From Phorcus lineatus (Eukaryota > Mollusca > Gastropoda > Trochida > Trochidae), in the NCBI GenBank assembly GCA_921293015.1, contig OV121095.1, positions 32,337,484 to 32,401,483 on the forward strand: 64,000 nt of DNA, given 5' to 3'. A model generated the notes under the pieces. That model ran no database searches, was not told the origin of the DNA, and was given only the letters and a program-made list of their open reading frames with translations. This document shows, in pieces, positions 6,940 through 42,137 of the stretch (position 1 is its first letter; every line of letters starts with the position of its first letter). The translations under genes and the position numbers were made by a program.

Positions 6940-7290
6940 GTGTGATTTATCCCATAGGGCCTCTTTGTTGCCTTTGTTTGTTTTACATAGGTCTTTATCA
7001 TATTTTACCGTAATACATAAATAGAACAATGTAAACTTAATATTAATTACTAAATTTGTACTAATGTTTTTTGGGCCTTGCCTCATTGTCCAATCGTGAT
7101 AGTCATAAGGTCTCAAAACCATCAAGTCATCTTATCGACAAACGGAAAATCAATTCATCGGTTGTATAAATAAGATTTGATGATTAAATGACCGAATTAT
7201 CCATTGGAGTCACAATGTGAATGCATGAATCATAAATATGTAAATATTCACAGACCTTCAATTTGTGCACGAAAAGTCAAAATTCGGATT
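6940..7290. repeat. Module A, first copy
   Basis: Direct repeat of 26385-26730. Shared words include GGAGTCACAAT, CATCAAGTCATCT, CATCGGTTGTATAA and TTGTGCACGAAAAGTCAAAAT, with many scattered substitutions. In both places the module leads into a degenerate palindrome array (GTGCAACTA..., TTGACACAGGCTTTGATCG). Confidence 0.75.
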
Positions 7291-7500
7291 CACCGCCTTC
7301 ACAAATACGCCGGATACAGAAAGGTGCAACTAGTTTCACAACGCATGGACGAGTTGACACAGGCTTTGATCGAGTCGTAGAGTTCGAACAAAATTACTGA
7401 ATGGCTTGTTGAAAATGTAGCTGAGTTGAGAACGGCATTATCAGTTTCAAATGTATTCGTTGTGCTATGATCTAACATGTAAAATGTTTGGGAAACGTGG

Positions 7501-7548
7501 AACATGTTCTGCAAACCGTAAACTAGTTGCTGTAAGCTTGAACGCGTT
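7501..7548. repeat. Phased palindrome array (3 cores)
   Basis: AACATGTT at 7501, AACTAGTT at 7521 and AACGCGTT at 7541: three cores exactly 20 bp apart. Confidence 0.85.
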
Positions 7549-8439
7549 TTAGGCTGTCACTTGATCACGAGGTCCAAAATGCGAACTAGTTTAAACGAGG
7601 TCTGAGCGAGTTGTTGAGTCGGAAGTATTTTAGATTTTGGGAAGAGATCACCAACAATGCAGTTGAACCTAATATGCTGTTTTTCAACCAAATGGTGTCC
7701 GTGTGTGTAGCCAAAAGCAATCCTTAACCTTGAAACTTTAGAACAATTGTGATTTTTTTTAATCCGAAAAAGAGTTTTAGGTTTCACATTCAAGTATTAG
7801 AATTAAGAACACGTTATGTTACATACTTCTAAAATCCACAAAACATATCTAGGTAAATTTAAAGCGTTTGCTTGACGTGGAAAGGATACTTCCACATAAT
7901 TGGTTTGTTAGGCTTGTCAGTTGGATGTGCGTTTTAGCGTCTTAATGTGCATAGCGTGGAACGAGTTTTATAGACGCGATTTAGTTGGTAGAGAAAGAAA
8001 AATCTTTTACAATAATTTAGGTAAAAGTTGAAAGTTTTGAAGTAATTTTTTGTTGAAAACGTGGAACGGCTTTTAGAAGTGGAATTATGTTGATGCGTAG
8101 AATGTGTTGGAGATTGGTGATTTAGTTTGTGAAGGTTTTGAACGAGCTGTTGAATTTTAGAGTACTTTGATGCGCAGAACGAGTTGTGGAATTGATATAA
8201 GTTTGGTGAGAGCAGAGCCTTCAATTATTACAATGGTTTTGTTTATCCCTTTGAATTATAATGTCTCCAATAATACAAACTCTTGTATATCTCCGAGCCT
8301 ATTCGTGTTCGGGATTCGAAAGCAAAACTTCAGAGTCAGGCGACACAGCCAGTTCTCAACAACTCGACTAAAAGGGCCTCGACAAAAGTCAGAATGCGTG
8401 ACATGTACAACTAGTTCTAGAAATGCTGATAATCGGGTA

Positions 8440-8830
8440 ATTTGACAGCATATCATATCGAGAGAAAATTATGAGCGAAAACATTTACGTGATCTAATGT
8501 AAAATGGATAACTGTGTCAGTAAAAATTAAGTTGATTTCAGTGATACACCTCTCCTCTTGTCCTACAACTGTTCAACTAGTTCGGCGAGACGATGAACTA
8601 GTTCGCAAGAGCGTGAACTAGTTGTTGAAAAGTCGGAACGAGTTCTACCTCTGGTCGTACAGCAGATTTAAATCAATCATGTTTCATTTGTCTATGAAAT
8701 AACAGGAATCCTACATGTACCTTGATGTCAAAGGGGGAATGAGTTTAGAGTCTTGCGAACTAGTTGTAAAAAGTCAAAACGCGTTCTAGACATTTGCAAC
8801 TAGTTCTAGAAATGTTGTTAATTGGGTAAC
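8440..8830. repeat. Module P, copy 1, with phased arrays
   Basis: Contains AACTAGTT at 8575, 8596 and 8616 and AACGAGTT at 8637 (spacings 21, 20, 21), then AACTAGTT at 8758, AACGCGTT at 8778 and AACTAGTT at 8798 (20, 20). Between the arrays lies an AT-rich stretch with TCAATCATGTTTCATTTGTC. The same order occurs at 9895-10250, 31240-31640 and 34760-34930, and inverted at 17480-17960. Confidence 0.85.
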
Positions 8831-9894
8831 TTGAAAGCAAATCATATCGAGAGAATATTACGAGCAAAAGGATGTACATGATCTAATGTAAAATCGAAAA
8901 CTGTGTCAGCAAAAATTAAGTTGAATCCCGTGATACACTTCTCCTTTTATCCTACAACTGTTCGGCGAGACAACAATCTCATTCAAATGCTCCACTACAT
9001 TACCGAAACTTTCAGACTGTTTTCCGAATGTCGAACTGCCTAAATTTCCGAATGAATGTATTTTATGTACTTTCAATCTACCCCAGCTTAGTTTGGTGGA
9101 CAAAAAAGTCAAATCGAAGCTATGGAGTTATCTTTCGCAAAGCAAACTCTGCATACCTCAACGTTATCCTTTAGTAGACGGTACTAAATCAAAATGCGTC
9201 TTATGGAAACAGATACGTTGAATAAAAGTTTCGTCTTTAGTTTGTAGTAATCGTTTAATAATTTTTAATTTCGGGATAAAATTATATCATAAACATGCTG
9301 AAAAAAGAATATCCCCAAAACATGTGCAAATACGATTAAGAAATTTCTTGATGATTATATATTAGTCACTTGCAACGTATATATGCAAATGAGATTGACC
9401 CCTGTTTCGTCAATGACTGACAGGTTATAAATAACTCTGCTGTATGGGTAATCGTAAATAGAGTGAGACAAATTATCTCAACTTCATTTCCGTAATATCA
9501 TAATGTTGTAATAGTGTCTCAAAACTCATTTCCGATCATGATGTAGATCATTGAGTGGCACGCATGATGATAGTATTTAGGTATCTGCTGAAAGCCAATG
9601 AGAGTTACAGGGCAGAAGTTAACCTGACGGCTTGAGTAAAAGAGCTCAGTGAGATGTATAACCTGCGTAACGTAGAGCAGCAATAATATATTTTAATCAA
9701 TGAGATTGGCGGGAAGATGAACTTGTTCTCAAGAGCGTGAACTAGTTGTTGAAAAGTCGCAACGAGTTGTTGAAAAGTCGGAACGAGTTCTACCTCTGGT
9801 CGTATTGCACATTTAAATGAATCATGTTTCATTTTTCTGTGAAAACCTACACATACCTTGATGTCAAATACAGAATGAGTTTAGAGTCTTGTCC

Positions 9895-10250
9895 TAGAAA
9901 TGTTGATAATCGGGTAACTTGACAGCAAACCATCTGAGAGAATATTACGAGCAAAAACATTTACGTGATCTAATGTAAAATCCTACAACTGTTCAACTAG
10001 TTCGGCGAGACGATGAACTAGCTCGCAAGAACGTGAACTAGTTGTGAACTAGTTGTTGAAAAGTCGGAACGAGTTCTACCTCTGGTCGTATTGCAGATTT
10101 AAATCAATCAATCATGTTTCATTTGTCTATGAAATAACAGGAATCCTACATGTACCTTGATGTCAAAGGGGGAATGAGTTAAAATCTGGACATTTACAAC
10201 TAGTTCCAGAAATGTTGAACTAGTTCTCGAATCCTTAAACGAGTTATTTT
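9895..10250. repeat. Module P, copy 2
   Basis: Direct copy of the 8440 module: CGATGAACTAG, GAACTAGTTGTTGAAAAGTC, ATCATGTTTCATTTGTCTAT and CTACATGTACCTTGATGTCA all recur. It carries a small internal duplication (GTGAACTAGTT twice near 10031-10052). Confidence 0.8.
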
Positions 10251-10289
10251 GGTATTCATTTTTTCCAGTCCAAGTGATACGAAATCGAG

Positions 10290-10800
10290 TTTGTTGAATG
10301 TGAAATCGTTTAATGATTATTAACAGCTTTGCATAAATAATTAATTTGTCAGCAATATCAGGCGATCTGTTACTTATCTACATGTATTTTGACCCCTTAA
10401 CAACTTGACATGAACGCGAGAACTAGTTCTAGAGCAATGATCGAGTTGTTGCAAGGCTGACCCCAGTTCCACCTGTATGATTAATCAACTGGAAGTATTT
10501 CATTAATAACTATTTTAGATATCGGTTGTATCTTTCATATTTGAATCTTAAACTTTACAAGTCTTTTTGATTTTAAGGACCAAAATTCTGATAACGTACA
10601 ACAGTTTTATGAATAATCTTGTAGCTTCTAAGTCTTTTCAGAAAGAAAGATTGAAAGATATTTTCTATGATAAATGAAAATCGACAGCATAAATACTTTC
10701 AAATAGAACAGATTGCGATATTGGGTTCCGCTCCGCATAACACGTGCAAAACGTGGAACGCGTTTAGCAAAGTTTTCAGGGGACGCAACTGATTTATTTG
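10290..10800. repeat. Module B, copy 1
   Basis: Diverged direct repeat of about 31640-32060, sharing AGTCCAAGTGATAC just upstream, GAATATTGTAGCTTC-like words and CGTGCAAAACGTG. No coding potential. Confidence 0.6.
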
Positions 10801-12582
10801 AAGAAATTAATCATGATTTCATTGAAGAACAATGATGAAGTTTGTGAGAAGAAATGAATATTTTAACAAAAGTGTTATATTTTCTGTCCGAGTTGAAATA
10901 GTGTTATTTATTGTGTGGTTAAAGCAATACAACAAATGTTTAATGGTGAATACTATTTCATAGGAATACACAAGTACAAAGTAATCATTTGATTTTTAAA
11001 AAGTGCAAACGGCAAGGGCAACAGTTTTTGTTAGCAAATGCAATGGCGTCTTTCAAAATTGATTCATTTAAAAAATGGTTTCAGTATTGTGGAAATTATG
11101 TTTTCGTCGACTTGCATGAGTTGGTTTCACGAGATTGTAATATGAAGAGTTAGCTTTAACAAAATTATTTGGGTATATTATTGTGAAATTAAGTGGACAA
11201 TAGAAGGTTGGAAGATTCGTTTTGGGAGATTTTGAGACGGGGATTTTTGTCGACCTACTTCAACTGGTTGAAGTATCGTTGTCAACCAATATCATAGAAT
11301 GTTGTGAAAGTTGCCCGAAGCGTTGTACATTTTAGAAAGAGTATTGCTCACTGATCATGTTGATAAATATAACTATCGGTATACTGTTTTGAAAAACTGA
11401 AATAGTTGAAGTTGAACCATGTTGTTGTTGAACATTGCGTTATGCTTTTCGTTCAGTGTATTCAAAACATAAGTTTGCTAGTAGTGCTAAAAATAAAAAT
11501 ATTTTAGGAGGTTATTAGATTTTCAGAAAAGGTTTAGCGGAAAATACAATTATCTTGCGCGTTTTGAATCTAATCTGTTTGCCTCTCATACTACTAAGGA
11601 CCTACATGTAACAAACTGTGCGAACTGCGGTACACGTTCCAAAAAGCGTGAACTACATGTAGTTAGGAGCTGGAAAACTTCGTAGAGTTATTACGCGTTT
11701 TTGATTTTTGGATTGAGCTATTTCATATTCCAAATAGGATTTTTTTTCGAATACCACGTTTTTACACGCGCAAGGAAAACGGGCTTACAAGCCATGATAG
11801 GCTTTGTCTTAGCATGAAATTGCATCCTTACGGACGCGTTGTATTCAGTCGAAACACGTTCTGTGTTCCTTGAACTAGTTGTGAGAAAATGAACTAGTTC
11901 CACTAAGTAAGAACGCAATTTTGCGCGAGTCAAGAGAATATTTCAAAATGTCAAGTGAGGATTTCGAAATAAATAGATAATTCAAACTAAAACTAAAACG
12001 CCATCATGAAAGTTGATGAAAACAAACAAATAATTCCGTCCTTATCTTCAAAGTTTGCACCGGATCGTCTTGTGTGTTTGTTAAGATGCGTTAAGCTTGA
12101 ATTGATACTAGTCTTCATTTACTATTGACAGATAAGTGTTCTTAAGATATAATTCATTGTTGGGACATCACCAAAACTCAATATTTTGACAATCATTTAA
12201 AAGTGTGGTTTTTTAGCTTTGATACGTATTAACATATTTGAATTTATATTATCGACAAATGCCAGTCTATGGGAATAACTTGATTCCATTTTTTAAAACT
12301 TTTGTGTGAGGAGCAGATATTTTACGTCCCGTTTACATGTTTACTAGTCACATAGCTTATTTGAAACTTCAAACTCAAATGTCTCTAATTGTAAGATAGG
12401 TTTTCTTTTGAGTGATCGGTGAGCGCCAGAAACAAAATATAAAGACGCAGATAAACTAAACTGATTAAACTTGAAATAGTCAAGTAAATACTTAAAACAA
12501 TTAATTAAAAGCATATCGGCTTAATCTTAATCTACCCGTAGCCTCTCCCTGTCCCTGCTCCTTTCTGTCGATCTGTCCGCCT

Positions 12583-12693
12583 GCGTGTCTGTCTGTCTGT
12601 CTCTCTCCGTCTGTCTGTCTGTGTTTCTGTCTGTCTGTCTCTGTCCCTCTCTCTCTCTCTGTCTCTCTCTCTCTCTGTGTCTCTGTCTCTGTC

Positions 12694-12764
<71 letters not shown>
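12583..12764. repeat. (TGTC)n and (TC)n microsatellite
   Basis: A TGTC-rich segment grades into pure TC from about 12706 to 12764. The long open frame across it is only a translation of the repeat. Confidence 0.95.
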
Positions 12765-12768
<4 letters not shown>

Positions 12769-12963
12769 ACAACATGAAATCTAAAAATAAAATAATCAAA
12801 ATCATTTTCCGTTTCTTTAGACTGACACAGTTTTATGATATTTCAAATATCATGTCTTTGTTCGTTTCTTTACACTCTCAGTATTTTGAGTTAACCGCAA
12901 CTGTCACTACGTTCTAGCTGGGGACTTAACTGTTCTGTTTAACGCGTCGTTTACCCTTTGATG

Positions 12964-13011
12964 AACGCGTTCATAGGCTCTAGAACGCGTTCATAGACTT
13001 TAGAACGCGTT
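12964..13011. repeat. Homotypic AACGCGTT array, exact 20-bp period
   Basis: AACGCGTT at 12964, 12984 and 13004, each flanked as GAACGCGTTC. A further related AACGCGTC lies at 12941. About 35 bp downstream comes TGTCACCTTAGGGGCTCGAT, the same terminal word found after the last array at about 42069. Confidence 0.9.
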
Positions 13012-13189
13012 CGGCTTAATATTTTCTCTATATAAACTGAAATGTCACCTTAGGGGCTCGATATAAATCCGCTAGAATATTATATGGAATTAAAGAAAAA
13101 AATTCTATTTCGTATATTTCTTTACATTTTTCAACTGCTACAAATATACTTTTTTAAACATTAGTATTATTTAGCTTTATGAGCGTGTG

Positions 13190-13770
13190 GAAGTTTCTAT
13201 CATGGGAATATCTTAACCAAGTGAAATCTTCAATACGACCAGAATTTGAGAACTACATGTACTTCCACCCTCTTTGCAACTAGTTCACGCTTTTGGCGAA
13301 CTAGTTCACGGTCACCCAACTAATCAACCGGTTGTTTATCCAGATGCTACATTAGATATAGTGTACATGTTTTTGTATTGTACTGCCATCTCATTTTCAC
13401 AATGAAATAGGAAATAATGTTATTAGAACATATAACACAGTATACGCACGGTGTACAAAACCGGAAACTTAGTAATAATAATGATGTAAACATAGTGAAT
13501 TACAGGTTATATTATGACTATAAATGAGGTTAGGAATTTCTTATGCAGTTACAAATGGTTGTCATGCTGTACTTCGTTTGATATTTCATTAAGAAATAGA
13601 AGACGAGTTGGTGTGCTTCTATCGTTGAATAAAACATAGCAAGGAGCATAAAACACGAAGGGCGTTCATTTCCGATTAAAGTAGAATCCAATTTGCGTTT
13701 TATTCTTGGTTTTACCCATCTCTAATCAGTCTGATTTATCAGAAGGATGTTTATCAACATCAATACAATG
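13190..13770. repeat. Module C, plus copy
   Basis: Inverted relative to 23810-24430. Shared words, allowing for strand, include AATACGACCAGAATTTGAGA, CACCCTCTTTGCAACTAGTT, TAGAAGACGAGTTG and AACCAAGAATAAAACGCAAA. The first part also matches 28650-28765. Confidence 0.8.
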
Positions 13771-13933
13771 CAACATGTTGTTGAGAGGAAATGTTAATGA
13801 TACACAAGAGAAGGAGCAGTAGTGTTTTTTAAAGGCCGAGTTGCAGAAGCGAAAAAGGTAAGTAGGTTGTCGAAGTCATGAAACATGATGAAGATTGGTG
13901 ACGTAAATGTTTAGAGTTCGGAACCAGTTGTAG

Positions 13934-14122
13934 AACTAGTTCGATTTTTTCTACAACGCGTTCACCAGTTGTAGAACTAGTTCAAACTTCCCGCAACACG
14001 TTCGCCAGTTGTAGAACTAGTTCGATTTTTTCAACAACGCGTTCACCAGTTGTAGAACTAGTTCAAACTTCCCGAAACACGTTCGCCAGTTACACAACTC
14101 GTTCCACATTTTTTAACTGGTA
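13934..14122. repeat. Phased palindrome array, 10 cores at about 20.1 bp
   Basis: Cores begin at 13934, 13955, 13975, 13995, 14015, 14036, 14056, 14076, 14096 and 14115 (spacings 21,20,20,20,21,20,20,20,19). The early cores alternate AACTAGTT with AACGCGTT or AACACGTT. A half-motif CCAGTTG sits about 10 bp before each AACTAGTT, near one helical turn. The 81-bp double unit is itself repeated, with only a few changes. Confidence 0.92.
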
Positions 14123-14580
14123 TTTCTTACAAATGATGAATTTCAAATCATACAGCCAGGTACATATTCTGTAAAGTTAAAGTATCATCCGCCAAAATTT
14201 AATAAAATCAACAACTATTTGTCTCGCCGATGAACAAGTTCAACGTTTATTGAGCCCGATTGTTCGACAGTAATTGTGAAGATTGTTTTCACACAGATTT
14301 ATCGACTCTCCTGTATCGAAAGACATACATTTATTACAGCTGAATATCCACGTCTAGTTTCCAAATCTTCCACACAGTCCAACTCATCATTATCAAGCCT
14401 GAGTCAACTATAGTTCTTTCTTAGGGGAACTTTTTCAACTTTTGCAAAACTTGTTTTGATTACAAGATGAAATGCAGCGATATGAAAGTATTTTTTCCTA
14501 CCAAGTTTGATTTGTCACAGATAAATTTTTAATTACTATTGAAGATGGGTGAGATTTTTATAAAGCTAATACCTTGAAGA
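14120..14580. repeat. Module Y, copy 1
   Basis: Direct repeat of 27500-27990 and inverted repeat of parts of 25170-25470 and 32700-33120. Shared words include CATACAGCCAGGTAC-like, TAATAAAATCAACAACTATTT, ATTTATTACAGCT and GATATGAAAGTATTT. Confidence 0.75.
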
Positions 14581-14607
14581 TTAATTAATTATTAATCTAG
14601 TGTCTTC

Positions 14608-14840
14608 GGTTCTGTTACGTTTCCATGGAAACTGGTAAAAATAAAAAAGCAAAGAAGTTGAAAACCCCAAAAGGCACATCTCCGCATGATGCCCGTTGCA
14701 CATACCAAGTTTCGTCGAGATAGGTCTCACCGTTTTGGAGTTGTGCTCCGGAAAAGAAATCCTATGTTACGTTTCCATGGAAACGAGTAAAAATAAAAAT
14801 GCAAAGAAGTTGAAAACCCCAAAAGGCACATAGGTTTTAA
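14608..14840 (-). repeat. Inverted copy of the 152-bp mollusc tandem repeat
   Basis: Reverse complement of about one and a half units of the repeat at 40156-40835: GTTACGTTTCCATGGAAAC twice, GGTCTCACCGTTTTGGAG, GCACATCTCCGCATGATGCC. It lies between module Y and the long degenerate array. Confidence 0.85.
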
Positions 14841-15019
14841 TTTCCAATAAATTTTCTTAAAACTCCTGTCACGTTCCCGAAATTCAGATCTAACTTCTAC
14901 AAGTCGTTCCATTCATCAAACATATAAATCATTTTTAAAACTTAGATTCAGATATAGCCAATCTGCAGATATCTAACTTACACTACTCGTGCATCATACA
15001 AAAAAACGTCCACTTTGCC

Positions 15020-17460
15020 AACTCTTTGCTAGACGCAGATGTTGCTTCCACAACGCGTTCCTACTTCTCAACAACTATAAAGCACCCTTCTGTAACACGT
15101 TCAACTTATTCAAGAAACAATAAGACCTATCAAACTCTGCATTCGATCTATGCTATCAACAACTACATCACCTATGATCAACATGAGAAATAGGTTAAAA
15201 ACAATATCAAGATAACAATAGCGAAATATGATTCCTTGTTCCTCCCTCACAAAATCAACTATCTTTTTGTTTTCAGCTTTCGTTAACCAAAATGCCTTTT
15301 GTAAAACTTCTACAACGCGTTCCATGCTCTAATATGCATGCACGTCTTCGCCTCTCAACAACTTTACAACAACTACATTTTTTAAACACGTGGAACATTT
15401 TTACAACAAAGTCACAAATGTATCTTTCGTCCCATGCTGGTAGTAACCATATCTTCAACACTTTTTTAAACTTTTAATAAAACACACTTCTAATCATTTT
15501 ATAAAACTTATCCTTCGTTGTTCCTTGCTAATTCAAGCTCTAAACAAGTAGATCCGCGCTCTAAACAACTAAATCACTTTCTCTACAATTCGTCTTAAGC
15601 TTTTAACAACCAGATCACACTTCTACGATACGATCAACGCTCCAATGCTTGAAAAGCCAGTTTCACGCCCCCAAAAACTTAACAAAACTTGGGCAATGCG
15701 ATCCATAATTGCAACGACGAAAATAGGCTTCAACCACTTATTTTACGCTCTCGCCAACTAACTTACACGTCACAAATCAACAAATAAATCATACTTCTAC
15801 AACAAGACCCACGCTCTCAAAAACTAAATCATGCTTAGATAATGCGATGTATGATTTGAACAACTACATCACACTTGGACAACGCGATCCTCGCTTTCAA
15901 CAACTAAATTTCACTTGGACAACGTAATCCACGCTCTCAACAACTACATGACACTTCAACAACGTGATTGAAGCCCTAAAATCACACTTAGATCTGAACA
16001 ACACGATCTACGCTATGAACAACTAACTCACACGTCGACAACGCGTTACATGTTTTAAACAACTAAATCATACTTGCAAAACGCAATCCATGCTCTCAAC
16101 AACACTCTCACACTTCTAAAACGCGATCCACGCTCTCAACAAAAAAAATCCTCTCCTCCGACGCGATCTTATCAAATAACTCACTTTGAGCAAAGCGATC
16201 CACCCTTTCTTTGACTAAATCACTCTTATACGAGCCGATCCACGCTCCAAAAAAAATAAATCTCACGTGTACAACACGATCAATACCCTCCACATTGAAA
16301 AACACATCTTCTACGTTGCTACCTACGCTCTCAACAACTGAATAAAATTGAACAACACCAACCACGCCATCAACAACTAAATCATATTTGTATAACGCGA
16401 TCCCCGCTTTCAACAACAAAATTACTTTTGCAAAAATGCAAATCATTCTGTAAACAACTTGATTACAATTCGAAAACGTCATTCACGCTCTCAATAATCC
16501 AATCACACTAACTAACTCGTTACACGCTCGCAACATTCAGAAATTATTCATCCACATCTACATCACATTTGCACACGTTCTATGTTCCAAACGATCAACT
16601 ACATCACGTACGCTTGAAAAAATCACCACTCTCCAACATCTAAAACAATGTTGTGTAACTCGCTTCTTGCAGTAGACAACTATAAACCACATATAGGAAA
16701 CTTTACTGACATGTTAAATGTTATTCTGATAGACCCCGATTTTCAGCAGAGGCGGCCTCTACATTCTTACTTAGCACAGAATTTATTTGTGTTAACTCTA
16801 ATGAAATGACAATCTGATTCTGTATCCATTATGACACGGGGATGGCCATCAACACTATTTTAATATCGTTCAAAGTTACCGAGAAATTGACGAAAACAAT
16901 ATTTTAAAAAATGTCGGGCCTTATTAGTGCTTCAAACATGTAGATCAAACTCTTACAATCCGTATCCTGCATCCGTCAACGAAATCATAATTGAACAATT
17001 CGTCTACACTATAGCTATCAAAAGCAACACCGCGCGTGTATATCTCGCCTTGTTCATTCAATATTTAAATCCCACTTATAAAACTCTTCCACGCTCTCAA
17101 CAATTAAAACCACCAATATTAAACATGTTGAAGGCACTAAAACTTAAAAAGTATCGTACAACACGAAGTCATTGTTCAACAACGCGTTCAAAGTTCGCAA
17201 CATGCACATTCTACGAAGCGTCTTGTACATCATCTAATTCACTTTTCAACGTTCTCAAAACTAAATCGCACTTGAACAACTTGTTCCAGGCTCTCAAAAC
17301 TAAATTAGCTTTATAAAACTCGTTCCGCTCTAAACATGTAGGTCAAATTCTGAAACTCCCAACTCATGTAAGCTATCCTCAACGCAGTCCTTTCTCTCAA
17401 CAAGAGTATCAAAATTCTACAACGCGTACAGACTTTCAACAACTAGTTCACGCTCTTGCG
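15020..17460. repeat. Long degenerate phased array with decayed right half-sites
   Basis: About 2.4 kb in which CAACTA and ACAACGCG alternate with a 40-bp double period. Three successive 40-bp units are clear at 15859-15978. The left half of each core (CAACTA, CAACGCG) is kept, while the right half is usually AATC or ATCC in place of GTTC. A few full cores remain, such as AACGCGTT near 15312 and 17182 and AACTAGTT near 17441. Open frames in this stretch are translations of the repeat and not genes. Confidence 0.75.
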
Positions 17461-17479
17461 AACAAAATTCATCGTCTTA

Positions 17480-17960
17480 CCGAAATAGTAGAAAAGTTGT
17501 ATGACAAATGAAGAGGTGAAACACGAAATTCAACTTAATTTTTTACTGGCACGGTTTTCGATTTACATTAGATCACGTACATGTTTTTGCTCGTAATGTT
17601 CTATCAATATGATTTGCTGTCAAGTCACCCGATAATCAACACTTATAGAACTTGTACATGTCTATAACGCGTTCTGACTTTTTACAACTACAGTGTAGTT
17701 CTCAAGACTCTAAACTCATTCCGTATTTGACATCAAGGCACAGGTAGGTTTCGTGTTATTTCATAGACAAATGAAATTATTATTGATTTATATCTGCAAT
17801 ACGACCAGAGGAAGAACTCGTTCCGATTTTTCAACAACTCGTTCCGACTTTTCAACAACTAGTTCAAAACTGGTTTACAACTAGTTAACAACTAGTTCAC
17901 GCTCTTGAGAACACGTTCATCGTCTCGCCGAGCTAGTTGAACAGTTGTAGGACAAAAGGA
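17480..17960 (-). repeat. Module P, inverted copy
   Basis: Reverse complement of the 8440 module, including ATTACATTAGATCACG-like sequence, CTCATTCCGTATTTGACATC, AATACGACCAGAGG and the array CAACTCGTT ... CAACTAGTT. AACTAGTT occurs near 17859, 17878 and 17888. Confidence 0.8.
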
Positions 17961-18049
17961 GAGGTGTATCCACAGAATACCAAAATATTAAGACAACCAT
18001 ATGTAAAAAAGCTATCATTAGGGTAAGGTCATCAGGAAGATACTCAAAT

Positions 18050-29898: not shown

Positions 29899-29960
29899 TG
29901 ATGTGAGGTGAGGTTTAACGCCGCTTTCAATAGTTTTTCACTTATATCGCGGCTGCTATT
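29899..29960 (-). mobile_element. Truncated SINE 3' core
   Basis: GGTTTAACGCCGCTTTCAA and ATCGCGGCTGC match the cores at 6215 and 30590. Only the distal part is present, with a GTGAGGTGAG tail. Confidence 0.6.
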
Positions 29961-30762: not shown

Positions 30763-31239
30763 TATGTACTAACATCCCGGAATAATTATATAACATTCAA
30801 GGAATGCTAATTTGAATATTTCATATTTACATGTATTGAAACATTTTCAATTATGCATTTATGCATTAGGTTTTAAATCTCTGAGATGGGATTTTATATA
30901 AAAATTAGGTCCTTTTTAAAATTATTATATGTTTTTCCATGATGACATTTTGTAAACAACATGCAAAGTTTTTATAATAAAGGCTTGTGATAATTAGATC
31001 TATGTGGTAATCGAAAATCTTTGTTCCCAAGGAAACGATAACGTTTGAACATTGAAATTCAAAAAAAAAACCATAAAAATTAAACATAACGTTTTGTCAA
31101 TATACCTCGATTCAATGACCTAAACATCATATTAATTCAGTTCTGATCCTAAAACAATATTTGTAAATATTAAAATAAGTAACATGTTGGTACTTTGTAT
31201 TGTGTTTAAACAAACCTAATTCTTATTTCATTACGAAAA

Positions 31240-31640
31240 TGACTTGACAGCAATGCATATTGATAGAATATTTAAGCAAAAACATGTACGTGATCCTATT
31301 TAAAGTCGAAAACCGAGTCGGGAAGTAAAGTTAAATTCCGTATAATACTCCTCTCCTTTTGTCCTGCAACTGTTCAACTAGTTCGGCGAGAGGATGAACT
31401 AGTTCGCAAGACTTGAACCAGTTGTTGAAAAGACGGTATGACTTCTGCCTCTGGTGGGTAGTATTGGGTAGTATGTTTGTTTTGTCTATGAAATAACACG
31501 AAACCTGTATGTACATAGTTGTCAAATTCGGAATGAGTTGAAGATCTTGCGAACTAGTTGTAAAAAGTCAGAACACGTTCAAGACATTTACAACTAGTTC
31601 TAGACATGTTGAACTAGTTCAATCCTTATACGAGTCCAAG
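31240..31640. repeat. Module P, copy 3
   Basis: Direct copy of 8440-8830: GTTCAACTAGTTCGGCGAGA, GATGAACTAGTTCGCAAG, GCGAACTAGTTGTAAAAAGT and ACAACTAGTTCTAGACATG are all present. Confidence 0.85.
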
Positions 31641-33146
31641 TGATACATAACCGAGTTTGTCTAGTGTAAAATTGTTTGTTTACCCAATTGATTTATTCAA
31701 ACCACCGAAAATATTGCATTAGAAACATATTTAAGATCTCGGTCCCATTAAGTGAACGATTCCAACATGAAAGATAAATATTCTACTTTATTTTACTATT
31801 ATTACTAGTAATATTACTATTTACTTTACTATTTATACTAATATCGAGTGAATAATTTCGATTACAAAAATCAGTATTATGAAGAATATTGTAGCTTCAA
31901 AGGTTGTTTAGAAAAAAATAACAAATTAACAGGTTATTTCCTCTTTTCGTCATCAGAAAAACTTTCACATTGAACAAATTGCAATATAGAGTTCTGCTCC
32001 TCATAAAAACGTGCAAAACGTGAAACGCGTTCATCAATGGTGAAGTAGTCGATGTAGGCCAGGTCGGGTTGTAGAGTTTGTTTAGGGATTATAGAGGTAT
32101 ACCTGTAATAAAATAGAAAAATGTAGCACTTGCGTCTTCAAGTATGGGCTGTCCGCGAAATCCGGTGAAGACAATCGAGACAGTGTGTGTTGGAACAAGC
32201 TCGTTTATTGTGAAACTTGTTCCACAATGTGTGAAATCTTTGTTGATTAAATATAAGCTGTGACAATACAAAATTATTTCACATGTAGAGGATATAAACC
32301 TTGCTTTATAAATGTGATTAAGATATTCCAAAGATCATATGGCAAAACGATATTGTAACTAGTTCCACAACTTGAAACGCGTTCATGAAAAACTCGAACT
32401 GGTTTAACAATTGCGAATGTGATGCAGGTAATGTTGAAATGTATCGAGTTTATTCATCAATGTCACTCGTACTATTTATGGAGGTGTTTCCGAATTTTGC
32501 ATGTATTAATTCCAAGAGAGACTGACTATCTACTAGTATTTCAAAAGTTTTATAAGTCTGGTCAAATTCACATCAACTTGTGAACTAGTTCTAATTACAT
32601 CAACTCGTGAACTAGTTCTCGAGCGCTGATTGAGTTGTTGAAAAGTTGACCGAGTTGTATCAGTGTGAACTGCCTTCTACTGTAACGCGAGTGACTAAAT
32701 TCGGTCATGATTTTTTAAGGTACAAGGTTTATATATTTCTTACCTGTGACATATTAAACTCGTTTGCAGAAATACTTTCATATCGCTACTTTTCATCATG
32801 TAAGCAAAACAAGTTGTGCTAAACTTAAACACGCTCTCCAACACAAACGGTCTAGTTAGGGTCAGGCTTTATCATGTTGAATTAAACTGCATGTGTCTAA
32901 GATTGGGAAACATGACGTGAATATAGAAAACTGTAATACCTGTATGTCTTTTGATACAACACAGCCGTGAATCAGGAGAAAATCAAACTGAAAAACGTTG
33001 AACTCGTTCCTCGGTGAGACACAAATAATTTTAAAAAAATATTTTATCATATTTTACCGGATGATACTTTAACCTTGCAGAATATGTACATGGTTTTATG
33101 GTTTGAATTTCATTATTAATAACAAAAAAATGTTTAAAAAGTGGGG

Positions 33147-33486
33147 AACATGTTGTTAAACTGGCGAACGTGTTGTTGAAAATTGAACTAGTTCTACAAC
33201 TGACGAACGTGTTTTTGAAAATTGAACTAGTTCTACAACTGGCGAACGTGTTGTTGAAAATTTAACTAGTTCTACAACTTGCGAACGTGTTGTTGAAAAT
33301 TGAACTAGTTCTACAACTGGCGAACGTGTTGTTGAAAATTGAACTAGTTCTTCAACTGGAGAACGTGATGTTAAAAATTGAACTAGTTCCACAACTGGCG
33401 AACTTGTAGTTGAAAATTCAATTAGTTCTTCAACTTGCGAATGTGTTGTCGAAAATACAACTAGTTCCACAACTGGCGAACGCGTT
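33147..33486. repeat. Best-preserved phased palindrome array, 18 cores
   Basis: Core starts are 33147, 33167, 33186, 33206, 33225, 33245, 33264, 33284, 33303, 33323, 33342, 33362, 33381, 33401, 33420, 33440, 33459 and 33479. After the first gap, spacings alternate 19 and 20 without exception, giving a 39-bp unit in which AACTAGTT alternates with AACGTGTT, ending in AACGCGTT. Each AACTAGTT is followed by CTACAACTGGCG and each AACGTGTT by GTTGAAAATT. Because 39 is a multiple of 3, a minus-strand open frame with a 13-residue repeat (ELVQFSTTRSPVV) results; I do not regard it as a gene. Confidence 0.95.
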
Positions 33487-34759
33487 GCTTGGACTTGCTC
33501 TGACCTGCTACTAAGCAGGTAAATACATGTACTAGAAACATTTCACTCAAAATGTGTTAATATTTTCGTTTTATAGAGAAAGGGAATTAAGTAAAGAATG
33601 TTAATTGTAATTAATTGACGTATCTCAATTTTATGTAGGAATAAGTTGAAATGGTTTCATCCAAGCTCGGGATTGTCATTTTTTCGCTTCGAGGTGATTG
33701 AAAGGCTATTCTACGTGCTTCAATTCTACCATCTTCCCACGGCAAAGTGAAAACGTATCGATATAGACTATCAATTTTCTCGGAGCGGGACGAGTTTGTA
33801 ATCTTCGGGTTCCAGTCGTGACGTTGTTAAGATGCGTCTCTATGTACCTTTCCACCCACTGACGAATACAAGATTTAAATTGACAAAGTAGCTCTCCTTT
33901 TGTTTTAGCCGTACATCGTTGCGTGGATAGAATTGCTACGTTCGATTAAAGTTATATTTCAAATTCAAAACATTTAAGATTTAGTGAAGCCTATAAGTAG
34001 ATTCTAAATTAACGACAAAATTTTAAACCCTAACACCCCTCGTGTTGAAAAAACAACCACTAAGAACGCAAAACAGAGACGTCCATGTTTTTGTAACTCT
34101 CCGTTGGAGGAATAAAGAATATAATTATCACATTGGATTAACGTAATTGTTAAATTACCATTTACCCTCTGAATACCTAGTGCCGCTAACATTTTGTGCG
34201 AAAACAAGATAGTGGGCAACGTTGTACAAAACTTTCACTGAGGCGTTAAAAAATGCTCAGAAGATAATAAAAATTCAACTGTAGTGTGCTGAAATGAATG
34301 TGATTGGGTCGAGGTCTTTTTCACGAGAAAATTCAAATAAAGATGAAAATGCGTTGATTATAAACGGAAAAGCGCAATGGACGTGAACTGTTACTCCATT
34401 GTTTCATTGGCTGTAATTAACCTATTGTTTTTAAAAGCGCAATTCAATTGTTATTATTCAAGAGACAAAATGACAGTGATCATGATGGAATGTTTACATC
34501 CTATGTTTACGACCGATTGTTCGTGAGATAATATAAGTTATCTTTTTGTAATCATTTTGTTGAACATATAGTTTCATATTGACGTCACGCGGAACAAAGT
34601 GCAGGAAAATGGACTTTGCATGGAAATACCTCCTGATGTTTCACAATAAAAGTGGGATAGTGACTGAATTTTCAACGACTGATAGTTATTTTTTCTATCT
34701 TGAAAACGGCAACTGTTCAACAACATTTAAGGTTGCTTTCATTAGCCCTCCCACTTGAT

Positions 34760-34930
34760 TTCAGTGATACACTTCTTCTTTTGTCCTACAACAGTTCAAC
34801 TAGTTCGGCGAGAGCGTGAACTAGTTGTGAACTAGTTGTTGAAAAGTCGGAACGAGTTCTACCTCTGGTCGTATTGCATATTTAAATCAATCAATCATGT
34901 TTCATTTGTCTTAGAAGTAACTATCGAGCC
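34760..34930. repeat. Module P, copy 4 (truncated)
   Basis: Direct copy of the 8530-8700 part of module P, with AACTAGTT near 34798, 34818 and 34829. It breaks off near 34920 at TATCGAGCCCCTGAGTTGAC, which resembles the inverted terminal word seen at 13040 and 42069. Confidence 0.8.
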
Positions 34931-36867
34931 CCTGAGTTGACGTTGACTAAATTATTTAACATTTAATGACTTACACATATTGAACATTTTAAAGTTATTT
35001 GTAAAACTAGTTCCTTGGACTGAACAAGAAAATGACACTTGTTCAAATCGTTTGAAACTCTCAAAAACTTGATCACAAACAGTCCACAACGCGATCCAAC
35101 GCGTTAAACGTTTTTCACAACTTGCTTTTGTTAGAAGCTGAGAGTAACTTCTTTCTCTGGTGACGATTTTGATCAAGAACAGTATAAAAAGCAATTCTTA
35201 TGCTGAATTGATATTGTAGATACATGATTGTTCAAAAAACAATTGAACGCTAAAATAATAGGTTCGAATTCATTCACTCAGGACTAGTAAAAAAAAGTTA
35301 AGTTCGAGATCTAAATCTTAAACTAATTACCAAAACAGATCTGAATTATTTAAGGTAACTTAATGAACTAGAGAGATGTTTATTGGATCATCGTGTTAAG
35401 ACTTTCAAAGTATAAGGCAGTTCGCACTGATACAACTCGATAAACTTTTCAACAACTCGATCAGCGCTATACAACTAGTTCACGAGTTTTAATGAGATCA
35501 AACTAAATAAGAATCATTTCTCCTTAATGATTACAAAGTTTATAACAAATGGTTTCAACAAATCCACAACTCGTTAGATGTTCGGAGAACTAGTTCGATA
35601 TGTCGAGAACTAGTTGTAAATGTCTAGAACGCGCTATGACTTTTTACAACTAGTTCGCAACGTCGTCAGCTATGTCTGTTTAAAACAACAAGGTAGGTTC
35701 CAACGTATTTCTTAAACAAATAAAACATGTCTTATGAAAGGAATAACTTATTTTATCCTACTGTGGTCATTAATATTCAAACTTTGCTCACATTCTTCCG
35801 AGTCCTCAACGCGATTTTACGAGAGCACATGTGGTGAACTTTTTGTTTCTTGTTGAATCTTAACACCGTTGCACTTTTCGGGGTGACTGTAGTAATAATG
35901 TATTGTTGATTGTTACAGCTTACCATTCTTTGATGATTCTTTTGAATTAAAAGAAAATGTAAATTCAGCAGCTCTTTTCGATTTTTTATACTTATATTTT
36001 CCTCTCAAAACATAAAATAAATGATTTGATAAATAGTAGCGATATCTAAAATTCAAAGAGTGTTTGCAAAATTTGCTTTTTACCAGCTAAAATCAACAAT
36101 GGGATTTTCCGGACTTTCAGCAACTAGTTCATGCCTTTCTGGACTTGTTCATCGTCTCGCTCAATTAGTTCAACAGTTTAGGGCACAGGAGAAATTGAAA
36201 ATTGCATTGTTTCGTTTTTAGTGTTATACACTTCTTTACGTTGGGTAACGTTAGTGGGATTTATTCGGTCAATATTGATAACTCTCATCCCATGTTCTAC
36301 GGGGTCTTTTTCATCTTCTGCTCCAGAAGCAAAAGGCCTGTACAGAGTTCTTACCTGATGAGGATTATCATAAAAGAATTTGGTGACGGATATAAGTCCT
36401 TATACTTTTCATCCCCAGACACAGCGAATCTGACAGGTCATATTTAAATTATCTCCGTCTCAGCTTTTCTCAACTATAAAACCATAAGGCCTAGTTAAAT
36501 TAACATATTGAACAATGATAATTTGTGGCTGAGCCTTTTGGAAATTTCATTTAATGAAACCTATATTTTGGTTTCCGTTTGCATAGAAACACATCCAGGA
36601 AATTTGTTTCCGTTGCAGAACGGAAAACTCATGTACCCAAGTCACAAAAACGTATAGGTTTTATTGCAGTTGAAAGGATATATCGACATGTAGGTAGACA
36701 TGCGTCGAGATAAATGTAAACCAAAGATTTCTTTCCTAAGACTATTTTCCGGGTTTTATTAAAATTTAAAATTGAAGAAATTATTTTATGTCGTCCATTT
36801 TAAATGCTTATTCTCCGTTCGGAGTAGCCTTTTAATGTAACTCTTGAGCTACTTAAATATATAGAGA

Positions 36868-36998
36868 TTATTACCCGAGGAGGTGTGTTGTAAGATTTTT
36901 ACGAAACGAGTGAGATTTTTTTTATTCTCGCTCGGGTTATATACACATTTGAAAGAGATTCGTAAGTGTCATATGATACACTTCCGAGGGTAATAACT
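36868..36998. mobile_element. Short foldback element
   Basis: Ends AGATTATTACCCGAGG and CGAGGGTAATAACTT are inverted repeats. Inside, GAAACGAGTGAGA faces TCTCGCTCGGGTT. Likely a small non-autonomous DNA element. It is related in style to those at 39340 and 39961. Confidence 0.55.
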
Positions 36999-37379
36999 TC
37001 TTAATACCGAGTCTATTCTATTTCAACCGCGTGTGTATTCGACGACCCGTAATAGTGGCGTCATGAATAATCGTCACATCACATCAAAATACGGTAACTC
37101 GCGCTGAATCAATCATTGCTTGGCAAAAGTTATGTGGGATTATTTCACACTCTTGCAATATTTCTATTATTTACATTTTTGAAATCTTTAACTTCAAAAG
37201 CTATGTTTATTGAATTTTTCAATGATATAAAACAATACAGTTGGAATTCGGCTTCGCTGCCCTATACAGGGTGATGAACATGATACATGCACGTCAGTGT
37301 TTGGTAATTCCTTCATGTGTTTTAGTTAAGTTTAATTTTGGTGCAATATCGCAAGACCTCAAAAATACACTGAGCCGAT

Positions 37380-38000
37380 GTTCAGCCAACAACTAAATAT
37401 CACTTGAACAAGTTGTTCAACGCTCTCGAAAACTAAATCTCATCTTTACATCATGTCCAGGCTTTCTACAATTAAATCTCTCTCAAACAACTCCTTTTAC
37501 GTACACGATAACGTACACAAATGCTGAGGCAACAACTTACTCAAATTTCTACAAATCGTTCACAACTTAATAACCCTCGAACATGCAAAAAAGTCTATGC
37601 TTTCAACACCTTAATAACACGTCTACAACGCTATTCGCACTCACAACATGCAGATCCAACTTTTAGAACTTGAAGATAAGCCAACAACTAAATAAAAAAT
37701 ATACAACTAGTTTGCCGTTATTTATACTAATTCACATATCTTCAACATTTATACCTTTGTTCAACTCGATATATGCTATCACTCCCTACAACTAAATCAC
37801 GCTTGTATAACGCGTTCCGCACTCTTAACATGCACAAATATATAAATTCTACGTCTCATCCTGTGCTTCAACTCACTAAATCACACATATACAACTCATT
37901 CCACGTACTCAACAACTAACAAATAGATCTACAAAATGTACAAGTGGTTTCCATCTGTCAAAGTCCAATTATAACATACATACAACTTGTATTAGATATA
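37380..38000. repeat. Second degenerate half-site array
   Basis: Same type as 15020-17460: CAACAACTAAATC and ACAACGCGTTCC-like words alternate at roughly 40 bp. Most right half-sites are lost. Confidence 0.65.
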
Positions 38001-38074
38001 CCCACACTTCCCGAGTTGTATCGCTCAATACACCTCCTGTTTGAATCGTGGGTCTCCGAGGCGTAGCGTTCAAA

Positions 38075-38865
38075 CTTGCATCAACTAGTTCACGCTTTGC
38101 AGAACGTGTTCCTCATTTCCTCTACTAGTGACATGTCGTTCACGCTGTTTTATTCGAGGGGTCCTCGTGCTTACTGAGTTGGTTTTAGCGGATGACATCA
38201 AGGATATATACACAACGAACAGATGGAGAATAAAATGGAGATTTGCACTATGTTCATCTTGAGTAATACTCAAGTAGTTGTTCTTTAAATGCAGTGACCT
38301 TGACAAGAAGTTTTTTTCTTTTTTCCACCATGGTAATAAAGATTAAAATAAATCTCTAAAAAAACCTTTGCAAATGGACAGTATAGTCTTTAGGGATGAA
38401 ATAAAGTTCAAACTGATGATACGCATACTCGGTCAAGTTTTCAACAACTCGATCACCACTCAAGAACTTGTTACCGAGTTGTTTAACACACATTTTCTTT
38501 ATGAAGAACCATTTTGTTGCATAATGTAGTAATGCTTTTCGTACGGAAGCTGATCGCAACTTTGCAACTGAATGAGAACAAGTTAAATCTTCCTGGAAAT
38601 AGTTCTAAATATCTAGAACGCGTTTTTATTTTGTACAACTAGTTCGTTTGACTAAATTATTCTCGAGTTGTTGAAAAGTGTCAGGAGGTACTTGAAAAAG
38701 AAACTATTTAATTCATTTCCAATTGTTCATTAAGTACATTATCATCTACAACAATGTACAGGTCTACAACGTGTTGGGACTCGACAACGCGACCACAGTC
38801 TGTGTCAACTCGTTCACGCGTTGGAGAACTAGTTGCATGTTTTCCATGATGAGCGCACCTGTTGA
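38075..38865 (-). repeat. Module D, right copy
   Basis: Inverted copy of 18050-18515, with an extra AT-rich segment (38170-38450) not seen in the left copy. AACTAGTT lies near 38082, 38636 and 38827. Confidence 0.8.
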
Positions 38866-39247
38866 ATTAAGTAAATGAATATATTACCCATATGGGAAGA
38901 TGGACACAGGGTAATATTTTTCCTGTAAGTCACACGGGAGTTACACATTTTCTTGGCATTTGATTGGTTGATGTGAACCAATGAAAAAGAACGTAGTGCC
39001 GGGACTATTTCATTCATCTTTCAAAGTTGTCCCGACTGGTAAGTTGTTTACCCTTAGACTGAATTTTAACAATGTATATTTATTCCATGTAGTTGCCAGT
39101 CGTCATTTCTCAGATGTGCCGCCACAAACAACATGAAATAAGCCTGCCACATTGCACAAAAGCATAGAAATTATCAATTACTAAATTAGTTCTTCATCAC
39201 GTTAAGCTAACAGTCGCGAAGAAGCGCCTGGTTCCGTTCTAACGTAA

Positions 39248-39587
39248 TGACGTCATAGACACGAGCGGCTATGACGTCACAGTGTCATAAGTTACGTCAC
39301 GAGTTCAGCCGTCTTGTACATAGAGAATACTAAACGACGTCCCGTTTAATAACATATTTATGAAACGAGTGTATGGTTTGGTATTTAACGAGCGAAAGCG
39401 AGTTAGATACCGATACCATTCACGAGTTTCATAAAAATGTAATTATACGGGACTGAGTTTAGTATTTTATTTATTACTCGCTGAATTATATCAAAGAAAA
39501 ATCATACAGATCGCCAGGATAGCCATTGTCGTTGCCTCGCTAACATTGTGACGTCATGTTTAACGATTGTGACGTCATGTGACGTCA
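39248..39587. promoter_or_regulatory. Cluster of CRE palindromes TGACGTCA
   Basis: Perfect TGACGTCA octamers at 39248, 39272, 39549, 39570 and 39580, plus TTACGTCA at 39292. This word is the consensus site of CREB/ATF bZIP factors. No gene start is visible nearby. The cluster surrounds a foldback element and may belong to it, so a regulatory role is only possible. Confidence 0.5.
39340..39455. mobile_element. Foldback element with inverted arms
   Basis: The left arm CCCGTTTAATAACATATTTA / TGAAACGAGTGTATGGT is mirrored by ACCATTCACGAGTTTCATAA / AAATGTAATTATACGGG. The centre is GAGCGAAAGCGAG. No coding sequence. Confidence 0.65.
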
Positions 39588-39960
39588 ATCAACACGCGAT
39601 GTTATTACACAATGTGTAATAACTTTGTAGATTTATTAAACAGCGGTATCTTCAACGGGAGAGTAATAAATGTAGTATTACTATAGGGCGTCGCTGACCT
39701 CTTCAAATTAACACAAAACTGTGAAATGTAATTATTTTGAATGACGGTTATGAAAACAGGAATAAACGTTCAAAAATAACTACTTTTAGCTATTTTTTTG
39801 AAACTTTTTCACAAATTACAATTTAACCGTGCGTAGGTAAGTGTCAAGCAAAACCACAGCACACGCGTATGAATTTTGAAATTCGCAACCCTAATCCTTT
39901 ATAGAGGAACGATTATTTCTATCATATTCGAGTTTTAATATTTTGAAAATCATATAGGTA

Positions 39961-40118
39961 ATATAAACAATAACCAACTCGTGACGGAAATGACAGATTA
40001 TCTTTCCCTCGTTATATTAATTGTGTAATTCTCTCGCCAAGGCTCGAGAATTACGAAATTAATATAACTCGGGAAAGATAATCTGTCATTCCCCGTCACT
40101 CGTTAGTTATTGTCTATA
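39961..40118. mobile_element. Near-perfect hairpin foldback element
   Basis: The left arm (from ATATAAACAATAACCAACTC, through GACAGATTATCTTTCCC, to TAATTGTGTAATTCTC) is repeated inverted up to 40118, about 75 bp per arm with few mismatches and a loop around GCCAAGGC. The DNA could form a long hairpin. Typical of a MITE or foldback element. Confidence 0.75.
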
Positions 40119-40155
40119 TCTCCCTCATGACCATGCCCATAAAATGGTTGCTTTT

Positions 40156-40835
40156 TATCCCCCGCCCCAACGTAGTTGGCGGGGCATATTGAAATGGTCT
40201 CCGCCCGTCCGTCCGTCCTTCCGTTCGTCCGTCCGTCCCGATAATGTTTCCGGAGCTCAACTCCAAAACGGTGAGACCTATCTCGACAAAACTTGGTATG
40301 TGCAACGGGCATCATGCGGAGATGTGCCTTTTTGGGGTTTTCAACTTCTTTTCATTTTTATTTTTAACTGTATCCATGGAAACGTAACATAAGATTTTGT
40401 TTCCGGAGCACAACTCCAAAATGGTTAGACCTATCTCGACGAAACTTGGTATGTGCAACGGGCATCATGCGGAGATGTGCCTTTTCGGATTTTCAACTTC
40501 TTTGCATTTTAATTTTTACCCGTATCCATGGAAACGTAACATAGGATTTTGTTTCCGGAGCACAACTCCAAAACGGTGAGACCTATCTCGACGAAACTTG
40601 GTATGTGCAACGGGCATCATGCGGAGATGTGCCTTTTGGGGTTTTCAACTTCTTTGCATTTTTATTTTTACCCGTTTCCATGGAAATGAAATATAGGATT
40701 TCGTTTCCGGAGCACAACTCCAAAACGGTGAGACCTATCTCGACGAAATTTGGTATGTGCAACGGGAATCATGCGGAGATGTGCCTTTTGGGGTTTTCAA
40801 CTTCTTTGCATTTTTATTTTTACCCGTATCCATGC
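40156..40835 (+). repeat. 152-bp tandem repeat, about four units
   Basis: The unit starts GGTGAGACCTATCTCGAC at 40270, 40423 (variant), 40575 and 40727, spacings 153, 152 and 152. Each unit contains ATCATGCGGAGATGTGCC, TTTGCATTTTTATTTTTACC and TCCATGGAAACGTAACAT. Upstream is CCCCAACGTAGTTGGCGGGG, a 20-base hairpin, followed by a CCGTCCGTCC tract. An inverted copy is at 14608-14840, so it is dispersed. Open frames across it are repeat translations; 152 is not a multiple of 3. Confidence 0.92.
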
Positions 40836-41599
40836 TTGTTTCTTGATACACTGAACAACTTGTTGAAGGTAGGATGATTCAGTTGCTTACAGCACAGTAC
40901 TTGATGTAGATGAAGGTTGGGAGTAAAACATCAGTTAAAGAAGCGTAATGTTTTTGTGTGTCCCTTATCCGAGGCCAGGTGATCATCAAATCTATTTTAT
41001 AATTCCTAGTCTGGTCTAAAAGGTTTCAGTTGTATGACCTTTCTCTTGATTTTCTTTTTAGAAATTCATTTTTGTTTAGCCCGAGAGGTGGAAAGCTTCA
41101 AAATATATAGTTCGAAATATGTCAGGGAAGACGTTCGATGCTTTTGTTTTAATCAGTATTTATTTTTTATCCAAATTAGCTAAGGAGTCTGAACACACGA
41201 TTTCACATATCAAGAACATTTCACTTCTAGAGAAGGAAGCGAAAGGGGAAAAATTCCCTAAGACCGTTTTAAGATCGGGGACAAACTCTATTATCTATGT
41301 TACGATCAGTAATATGTACACCGGAAATCAGATCCCAGGCCATTTGATTCTAGAGAAAGCGAGAATGATTTAGTCTTTAATAGGGACCACAGAGTCACCA
41401 AAACTATAAATGAGAATTCTTATTAGCAATCAGTCTTTACACAAGAGTTCGAATTCGTAGGGTTAGTGGTGTTTGAGAACAAGTAAAAAAAACCGTTTAT
41501 GGAAGGACGGACACTTGACGTCTTATCATGCCATGAGCCCGTCGGCCTTTTCCGGCCTAAATAGCTAAAAAGGACATACCTGAACAAATACGTATACAT

Positions 41600-41810
41600 G
41601 GATACTAGTTACATAACCTTACTAACACTATATAACCTAACTAACACTATGAACTCCTAACTGCCCTCCTGGCTGTTTCAGATAAGTCTCCAAAATTACT
41701 TTTGACTATTAAACGCGCTCCACTGTCCGCTTTTCGATCATAATTGCGACGTTCTACCTTCATATTGTCATTGTAAAAAACCAATCCGTTTCCGTTTTTT
41801 ATCGAGAAGG
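41600..41810. repeat. Partial relative of the 22.5-kb TTAA MITE
   Basis: ACATGGATACTAGTTA, CACTGTCCGCTTTTCGATCA and TATTGTCATTGTA match the interior at 22749-22880. Terminal repeats are not seen, so it is a decayed or truncated copy. Confidence 0.65.
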
Positions 41811-42137
41811 AGTTTTGAATGACCTTTTTGGATATCTTTTAAATCTCAATTTTTAATTTATTGACAATTTTAATCCGTTTCCGTTTTTAAACGAGGAGGT
41901 GTTTTTGAATTTTCATTTTGTGTATATCTGTATTCGTTTTAATTTATTTCGAGTTTTTAGTGTAACCAGAACAAAGACATCAACTACTTGTTGAAGCATA
42001 ATGAACGCATTCATAACAGTCAAAACGTACCCCGAACGCGTTCTGTGATAAAAACAACTAGTTGAAGAATGTCACCTTAGGGGCTCGATACTTAACAGTT
42101 AGCATTCAGCTTTTTCGTCTGGAAATATTTATGATTG

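Follow-up and report, generated by a model that had tools for sequence, protein, structure and literature searches.

Our subject is a window of 64,000 nucleotides from the gastropod Phorcus lineatus (assembly GCA_921293015.1, contig OV121095.1, positions 32,337,484 to 32,401,483; the window starts at C32:32,337,484), which we compared with the genome as searched here (957.8 Mb, 74 contigs). We estimate a probability of roughly 80% that window positions 6091-42090 are one rearranged copy of a family of giant, apparently gene-less, non-autonomous DNA transposons with ends of the IS3EU/GingerRoot type. An initial annotation had marked a block of scrambled modular repeats at 6940-42089, and considered for it an undescribed non-autonomous element family, a regional chromatin or pairing element, or an old satellite-like locus. 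The right limit agrees with the terminus identified here (42088 plus TA), whereas element DNA starts at 6091, where homology among copies stops sharply and another abundant repeat lies beyond. The first of these suggestions is backed by the inverted ends, by target duplications of 6 bp and by the failure to detect genes, and we found no description of such an element among the listed titles and opening lines of abstracts on giant or non-autonomous transposons, IS3EU/GingerRoot or bivalve satellites.

Members of the family end in inverted 23-bp termini, TATCGAGCCCCTAAGGTGACATT, which start TATCGAG and are made up of a 21-bp terminal inverted repeat plus TA. Alignment of the window with C1:30.165-30.219M delimited a complete copy at C1:30,176,591-30,217,087 (40,497 bp; hereafter the C1:30.18M copy), in which perfect 21-bp inverted repeats are flanked by TA. 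With up to two mismatches allowed, a 19-nt terminus pattern has 40 occurrences in 958 Mb, 28 of which are perfect, and its reversed control gave 0 and 1; a second pattern (20 nt, 18 specified, up to one mismatch) occurs at 44 places, with 0 for its control. Twelve end pairs were examined, the C1:30.18M copy and eleven from 34 short stretches fetched around termini. Identical 6-bp target duplications lie outside TA..TA in 10 of these 12 pairs and in none of 121 cross pairings: the element inserts as a unit with a 6-bp target duplication. In 11 pairs the termini are inverted and 35.9-76.3 kb apart, and the ten verified units measure 35.9, 36.9, 40.5, 42.1, 43.6, 44.1, 45.1, 54.2, 58.4 and 76.3 kb, TA included. 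The mobility of the unit is well shown.

TA follows the termini of the giant-copy pairs, as it would in a Tc1/mariner-type element with a TA duplication. Six bases outside the TA are duplicated too in the ten pairs, which refutes that reading and leaves it next to no probability; the TA therefore belongs to the terminus. It is absent at L069, L071 and L072, which have two mismatches and no element sequence inside, and the older C1:25.63M copy reads AA where other termini read TA. For IS3EU/GingerRoot elements, the relevant part of PMC10045372 gives TA..TA termini and, usually, 6-bp target duplications. The element shares both features, and differs from these transposons in that no transposase was found, in its length (36-45 kb in seven of the ten verified copies) and in the phased palindromes found throughout. 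Seven giant copies, the window copy among them, contain a variant terminus, TATCGAGCCCCTGAGTTGAC, at 5-7 kb from their right ends, and the remaining places among the 44 pattern hits lack it; the giant element is therefore probably composite. The C1:30.18M copy holds a shortened form of this variant.

We searched for genes in 125 of the 163 window open reading frames (ORFs; at least 52 aa, very biased ones removed), which is the scope of the domain results below. Pfam returned six single hits at E ≤0.05, a chance-level number; ten block ORFs gave one hit, Headcase, at E 0.076, and there was no Rfam hit at the gathering score and no tRNA. ORFs of at least 100 aa number 10 against 7.4 simulated, and the longest has 128 aa, less than the 143 that the simulations gave on average. 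The statement in the initial annotation that the block has no coding sequence agrees with the Pfam result, but 41 ORFs reach 80 aa or more, a number above all 60 simulations (mean 26.9, maximum 37). Tandem and simple repeats are seen among the longest frames, and we tentatively ascribe the excess to them. As no gene was found, the element was probably moved in trans. Likewise, no IS3/IS481-like DDE transposase was found among these ORFs, and a right-end search showed no full-length end other than the known ones; of the C7:6.907M and C9 relatives and the longest copies, parts were read. Were the element autonomous, its transposase could lie in short spliced exons missed by an ORF scan, or its gene in the extra DNA of the longest copies. 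The excess of ORFs would fit this, as would the 54-, 58- and 76-kb copies (C1:50.72M, C17:16.34M and C5:8.99M), which have intact duplications and unread added DNA that could hold genes. We nevertheless consider autonomy unlikely in view of the chance-level Pfam hits, the modest longest ORF and the indels between copies, which are not confined to multiples of 3 (10 of 54); moreover, the two smallest of the verified units, 35.9 and 36.9 kb long, have moved despite lacking this added DNA.

Besides the ORF excess, the unread added DNA of the longest copies and some palindrome counts given below, several observations weigh against the reading of the block as a non-autonomous transposon. Neither a transposase nor a partner element was found, so that assignment to the superfamily is made from the termini and the duplication length. 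The window copy has no verifiable left duplication, since a left match of the CTTAACAG flank was not found, and two of the 12 pairs fail the duplication test: C25:30.61M, 38.4 kb long with two and one mismatches in its termini, and C15:26.91M, the pair not in inverted orientation, whose two termini share a strand. Several termini are solitary, among them those at C12:23.368M and C7:6.908M, and C1:41.58M has element DNA with no terminus by either genome pattern. Finally, C37:5.03M, C16:46.18M, C16:32.81M and C13:48.57M carry element DNA with none of the known termini nearby. Their mutual identity is 99.9-100% over 1.5 kb, and in a comparison of 3.5 kb C37:5.03M and C16:46.18M are 99.3% identical, with the element DNA in another order; on the evidence of these four loci, some spread is by another route.

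The element is young and has recently spread over many contigs, at least nine of which hold copies. The window and C1:30.18M copies differ by 357 substitutions in 32,121 aligned bases (1.1%) across seven collinear blocks, a count that omits 13063-13938 and 38891-41782. The right-end 307 bp of the window copy are identical to those of the C1:48.92M copy, and a search with them gave 17 matches (all 16 candidates scored), 12 of which, the window included, are full-length at 98-100%. All 12 end at known termini, one (C12:23.368M) without a partner found, while the other five are C25:30.61M (254 bp), the diverged C7:6.907M relative (86%), two short matches inside known copies and 49 bp at C1:28.05M. 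A search with window 6091-7400 (40 of 4604 candidates scored) found at least 16 further matches, with identities of 97-99% for 14 of them and of 93% and 91% for the last two. For 8384-8963 there are at least 89 matches (40 of 149 candidates scored). Leaving the query itself aside, the best of these are two full-length ones at 100% identity and seven at 99%; a further one covers 524 of 580 bases, also at 99%. A 2.65-kb deletion is common to the window, C1:48.95M and C25:8.97M (w7400 and w8384 are 984 bp apart, against 3555-3640 bp in C11, C12 and C1:30.18M); therefore, the deleted form itself has spread. Two further loci are of interest here. L074 (C13:46260659) has just the last 29 bp of the element right end, next to DNA that does not match the element there, and is perhaps an excision scar; L075 (C1:10.135-10.143M) is a relative with a one-mismatch terminus that shares element parts near 20.3, 28.6-30.0 and 39.9 kb.

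Periodicities of 20 and 40 bp, internal modules down to 58% identity and a plausible 20-bp ancestral unit would also suit an old satellite or minisatellite locus, in which an immobile 20-bp tandem repeat was locally amplified, inverted and degraded. Discrete termini and target duplications in ten of the 12 pairs refute this account of the block, near-identical copies lie on many contigs, and long uniform tandem arrays without defined ends are not what the block consists of; its probability is very small, and with it falls the satellite-like locus of the initial annotation. Old minisatellite DNA may be raw material inside the element.

Polintons are, like the element, tens of kilobases long, and they have long inverted repeats with AG..TC ends. 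They are present in the same genome, and the block could be a gutted Polinton/Maverick (virus-like element), its gene-less copies being moved by a Polinton integrase. A 6-bp duplication is given for Polintons as well in the part of PMC10045372 that treats them. Element DNA at C1:3.72M lies directly next to an adenovirus-type protease and an integrase of the rve-chromodomain type (both by Pfam). A neighbouring protein has 75 genome matches, five at 99-100%; we read it as capsid-like, although it had no hit in Pfam or PHROGs and none significant among PDB sequences. Five Polinton-like copies share it at 99-100% (C1:3.72M, C1:77.51M, C41:7.29M, C32:0.42M and C32:4.34M), the C1:3.72M one being interrupted by element DNA. 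The four others match L034 up to position 9659 only and then share other sequence among themselves, and the contact at C1:3.73M is therefore a breakpoint, not anatomy. Given this incidental contact, the TA..TA ends with 23-bp repeats, which are unlike the long AG..TC repeats, and the absence of any integrase, capsid, protease, ATPase or PolB gene among the element ORFs searched, we regard a Polinton origin as quite improbable. A long coding-like tandem repeat, with a unit near PSEVFTVPDRVVVEGTPV, was noted in L080 (C1:3713001-3720000).

The transposon is crowded with AACnnGTT palindromes, which are spread over almost its entire length and come to within 100 bp of either terminus. By script, AACTAGTT is present 80 times in 6940-42089 and 81 times in the whole window, which contains 201 AACnnGTT. 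The genome has 20,303 AACTAGTT, one per 47 kb, or 0.75 expected in 35 kb, and the enrichment reported in the initial annotation (some 80 by hand, about one by chance) holds. In the full copy there are 215 AACnnGTT and 89 AACTAGTT, compared with means of 20.2 and 1.35 and maxima of 32 and 4 in 100 first-order Markov simulations. Spacing peaks at 20, 40, 21 and 39 bp, about two helical turns, with weaker peaks at 11-12, 32 and 52-53 bp if one mismatch is allowed. An in-register partner (up to one mismatch, 19-21 or 39-41 bp away) was found for 177 of the 215 full-copy palindromes, against a mean of 30.6 and a maximum of 49 for random positions. Genome-wide, there are 1392 pairs of the form AACnnGTT-N12-AACnnGTT versus 327 for the reversed control, and their places among the matches listed, all on C1, include at least three clusters of 8-12 kb.

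When internal repeats are compared with one another, the window keeps AAC..GTT in 350 of 569 cases, as against 15 of 35 for the gapped palindrome that came second and 54% of 52 for the permuted word retained most often. In the full copy the count is 468 of 598, and 67 permuted words taken together reach 40%. These counts are non-independent, as modules recur in many pairs and both directions were counted. Among old internal repeats of the 50-75% identity class, retention is 84-88% at the six fixed positions and 56-80% at flanking ones. Recent copies show no significant protection of the palindrome core relative to one another (Fisher p 0.24, 0.54, 0.19), so that any constraint would have acted in the lineage that moves. 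Against two relatives the retention excess is small (77 of 106 vs 59%; 21 of 39 vs 43%), and a few permuted words with small numbers are retained at 78-97% in the full copy (up to 97% of 29). These last three results suit palindromes that are neutral baggage, relics of a captured minisatellite that appear retained through the alignment of arrays in register, and we give this explanation slightly less than an even chance. The contrast of fixed with flanking positions in old repeats, a register maintained across differing linkers and the sites close to both termini argue against it, and the palindromes may form a protein-binding platform. Such a role for the palindromes themselves is possible, whereas a chromatin or pairing function of this locus is unsupported because the block is mobile. 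As readings of AACnnGTT, p53-, Grainyhead- and Myb-like sites were considered; the Grainyhead-like one is a poor fit, its form AACCGGTT occurring just once in the window. A three-site array pattern matched six viral contigs, by inspection with simple tandem repeats or iterons that are unrelated to the element. In one, L003, four AACGCGTT repeats at 521-588 have a 20-bp spacing, apparently upstream of a reading frame, and are alike in geometry alone.

We propose that the TA..TA ends would be acted on in trans by a DDE transposase or integrase like those of IS3EU/GingerRoot elements. In the least certain step, the phased palindromes would serve in cis as sites at which a dimeric protein binds along one DNA face, and the bound protein may help a unit of such length to synapse, replicate or evade silencing. 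Tentatively, the 'cargo' of the element could thus be a protein-binding landscape, with about 200 helically phased palindromes recruiting a host or helper protein over the whole 40 kb, whereby a unit far above the usual cargo limit might be compacted, synapsed and moved in trans, or kept unsilenced; the C1:30.18M element has an observed/expected CpG ratio of 1.06, compared with 0.63-0.84 in four sampled flanks.

Inside the element, self-comparison finds repeated modules at 58-94% identity in both orientations, including the large imperfect inverted repeat of Table 1, which confirms the modules of varied order and orientation in the initial annotation. That they are always joined through palindrome arrays was too strong, as many module matches cross array-free DNA; the description of the block as scrambled stands for the repeated modules, but part of the disorder is peculiar to the window copy, whose left arm is inverted relative to the C1:30.18M copy. 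Its left terminus is joined to an internal site of the element, and about 1.9 kb is absent. The C1:48.92M copy has a left-type terminus 70 bp inside its right outer end, and a perfect duplication still flanks the whole. Both arrangements look like a terminus attacking its own element; in the window copy, a faulty intramolecular event may have joined the left terminus to a site inside the element and thereby inverted the left arm. A nested second full copy is an unlikely cause of the inverted arm, with no further C32 left-arm match among the candidates scored (40 of 149 and 40 of 4604). The degenerate 40-bp array in Table 1 is, in our reading, related to the 20-bp unit.

Table 1. Coordinates of the element and associated features in the window.
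Feature	Position	Strand	Remarks
Giant element, single copy	6091..42090	.	rearranged: inverted left arm, ~1.9 kb absent vs C1:30.18M copy
Left arm	6091..13061	-	inverted vs C1:30.18M copy; also without 2.65 kb at 8384/8387
AACnnGTT array	8575..8644	+	20-21-bp spacing
Left-type terminus (21-bp terminal inverted repeat plus TA)	13041..13063	+	joined to element-internal sequence TATAAATCCGC
Rest of element	13064..42067	+	13938-38891 and 40116-42090 collinear with C1:30.18M copy, mostly 97-98%; 40935-41784 at 93%
AACnnGTT array	13923..14103	+	81-bp higher-order unit
Degenerate 40-bp tandem array	15777..16142	+	
Large imperfect inverted repeat, left arm	22995..25889	+	partner 27003-29828
AACnnGTT array	33147..33487	+	39-bp higher-order period
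Internal variant terminus	34922..34941	+	TATCGAGCCCCTGAGTTGAC
152-bp tandem repeat	40245..40834	+	present also at 14610-14831
Right terminus (21-bp terminal inverted repeat plus TA)	42068..42090	+	then flank CTTAACAG
Flank: different abundant repeat	1..6090	.	sharp edge at 6090/6091 (5001-6090 searched)

The DNA around the element has features of its own. Window 1-6090 belongs to an abundant repeat, a query including its last 1090 bases having 4604 candidates, of which 40 were scored. On the other side, two C1q-domain frames and one THAP-domain frame adjoin the element (43544-43954, 47887-48291 and 51007-51414). Further along, 53161-53710 and 58307-58855 form an inverted pair, 99.3% identical, whose frames of 124 and 109 aa share the ending NMRTAPNYYFYEC.

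Among known systems, the element resembles Polintons/Mavericks in its 6-bp duplication, its length of tens of kilobases and its presence in the same genome, and differs in its termini and in having none of their genes seen. With miniature inverted-repeat transposable elements and Pack-MULEs it has in common inverted repeats, the lack of a transposase and mobilisation in trans. Pack-MULEs of one study were all at most 7 kb long, and DNA transposition falls above 6 kb of cargo, although artificial constructs of 100-200 kb have been moved, according to a review section (PMC6431247). At 36 kb or more in nature, the element exceeds the natural non-autonomous DNA transposons named in that section. 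Like the giant eukaryotic transposons Teratorn, Starships and Terminons, it moves tens of kilobases as one unit; Teratorn is a fusion of a transposon with a herpesvirus and Starships bear cargo genes, whereas the element shows no genes. From Helentrons as generally understood, it is set apart by its inverted terminal repeats and target duplications. Satellite-carrying Helentrons of bivalves, as outlined in part of PMC7492417, are similar in being mobile and in carrying tandem repeats.

An apparently gene-less unit of at least 36 kb has been inserted whole at ten verified sites in this genome, several of them recently, and a block that resembles a scrambled old satellite can accordingly be young mobile DNA. 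If the phased palindromes enable its movement, they would represent a natural answer to how very long DNA transposes.

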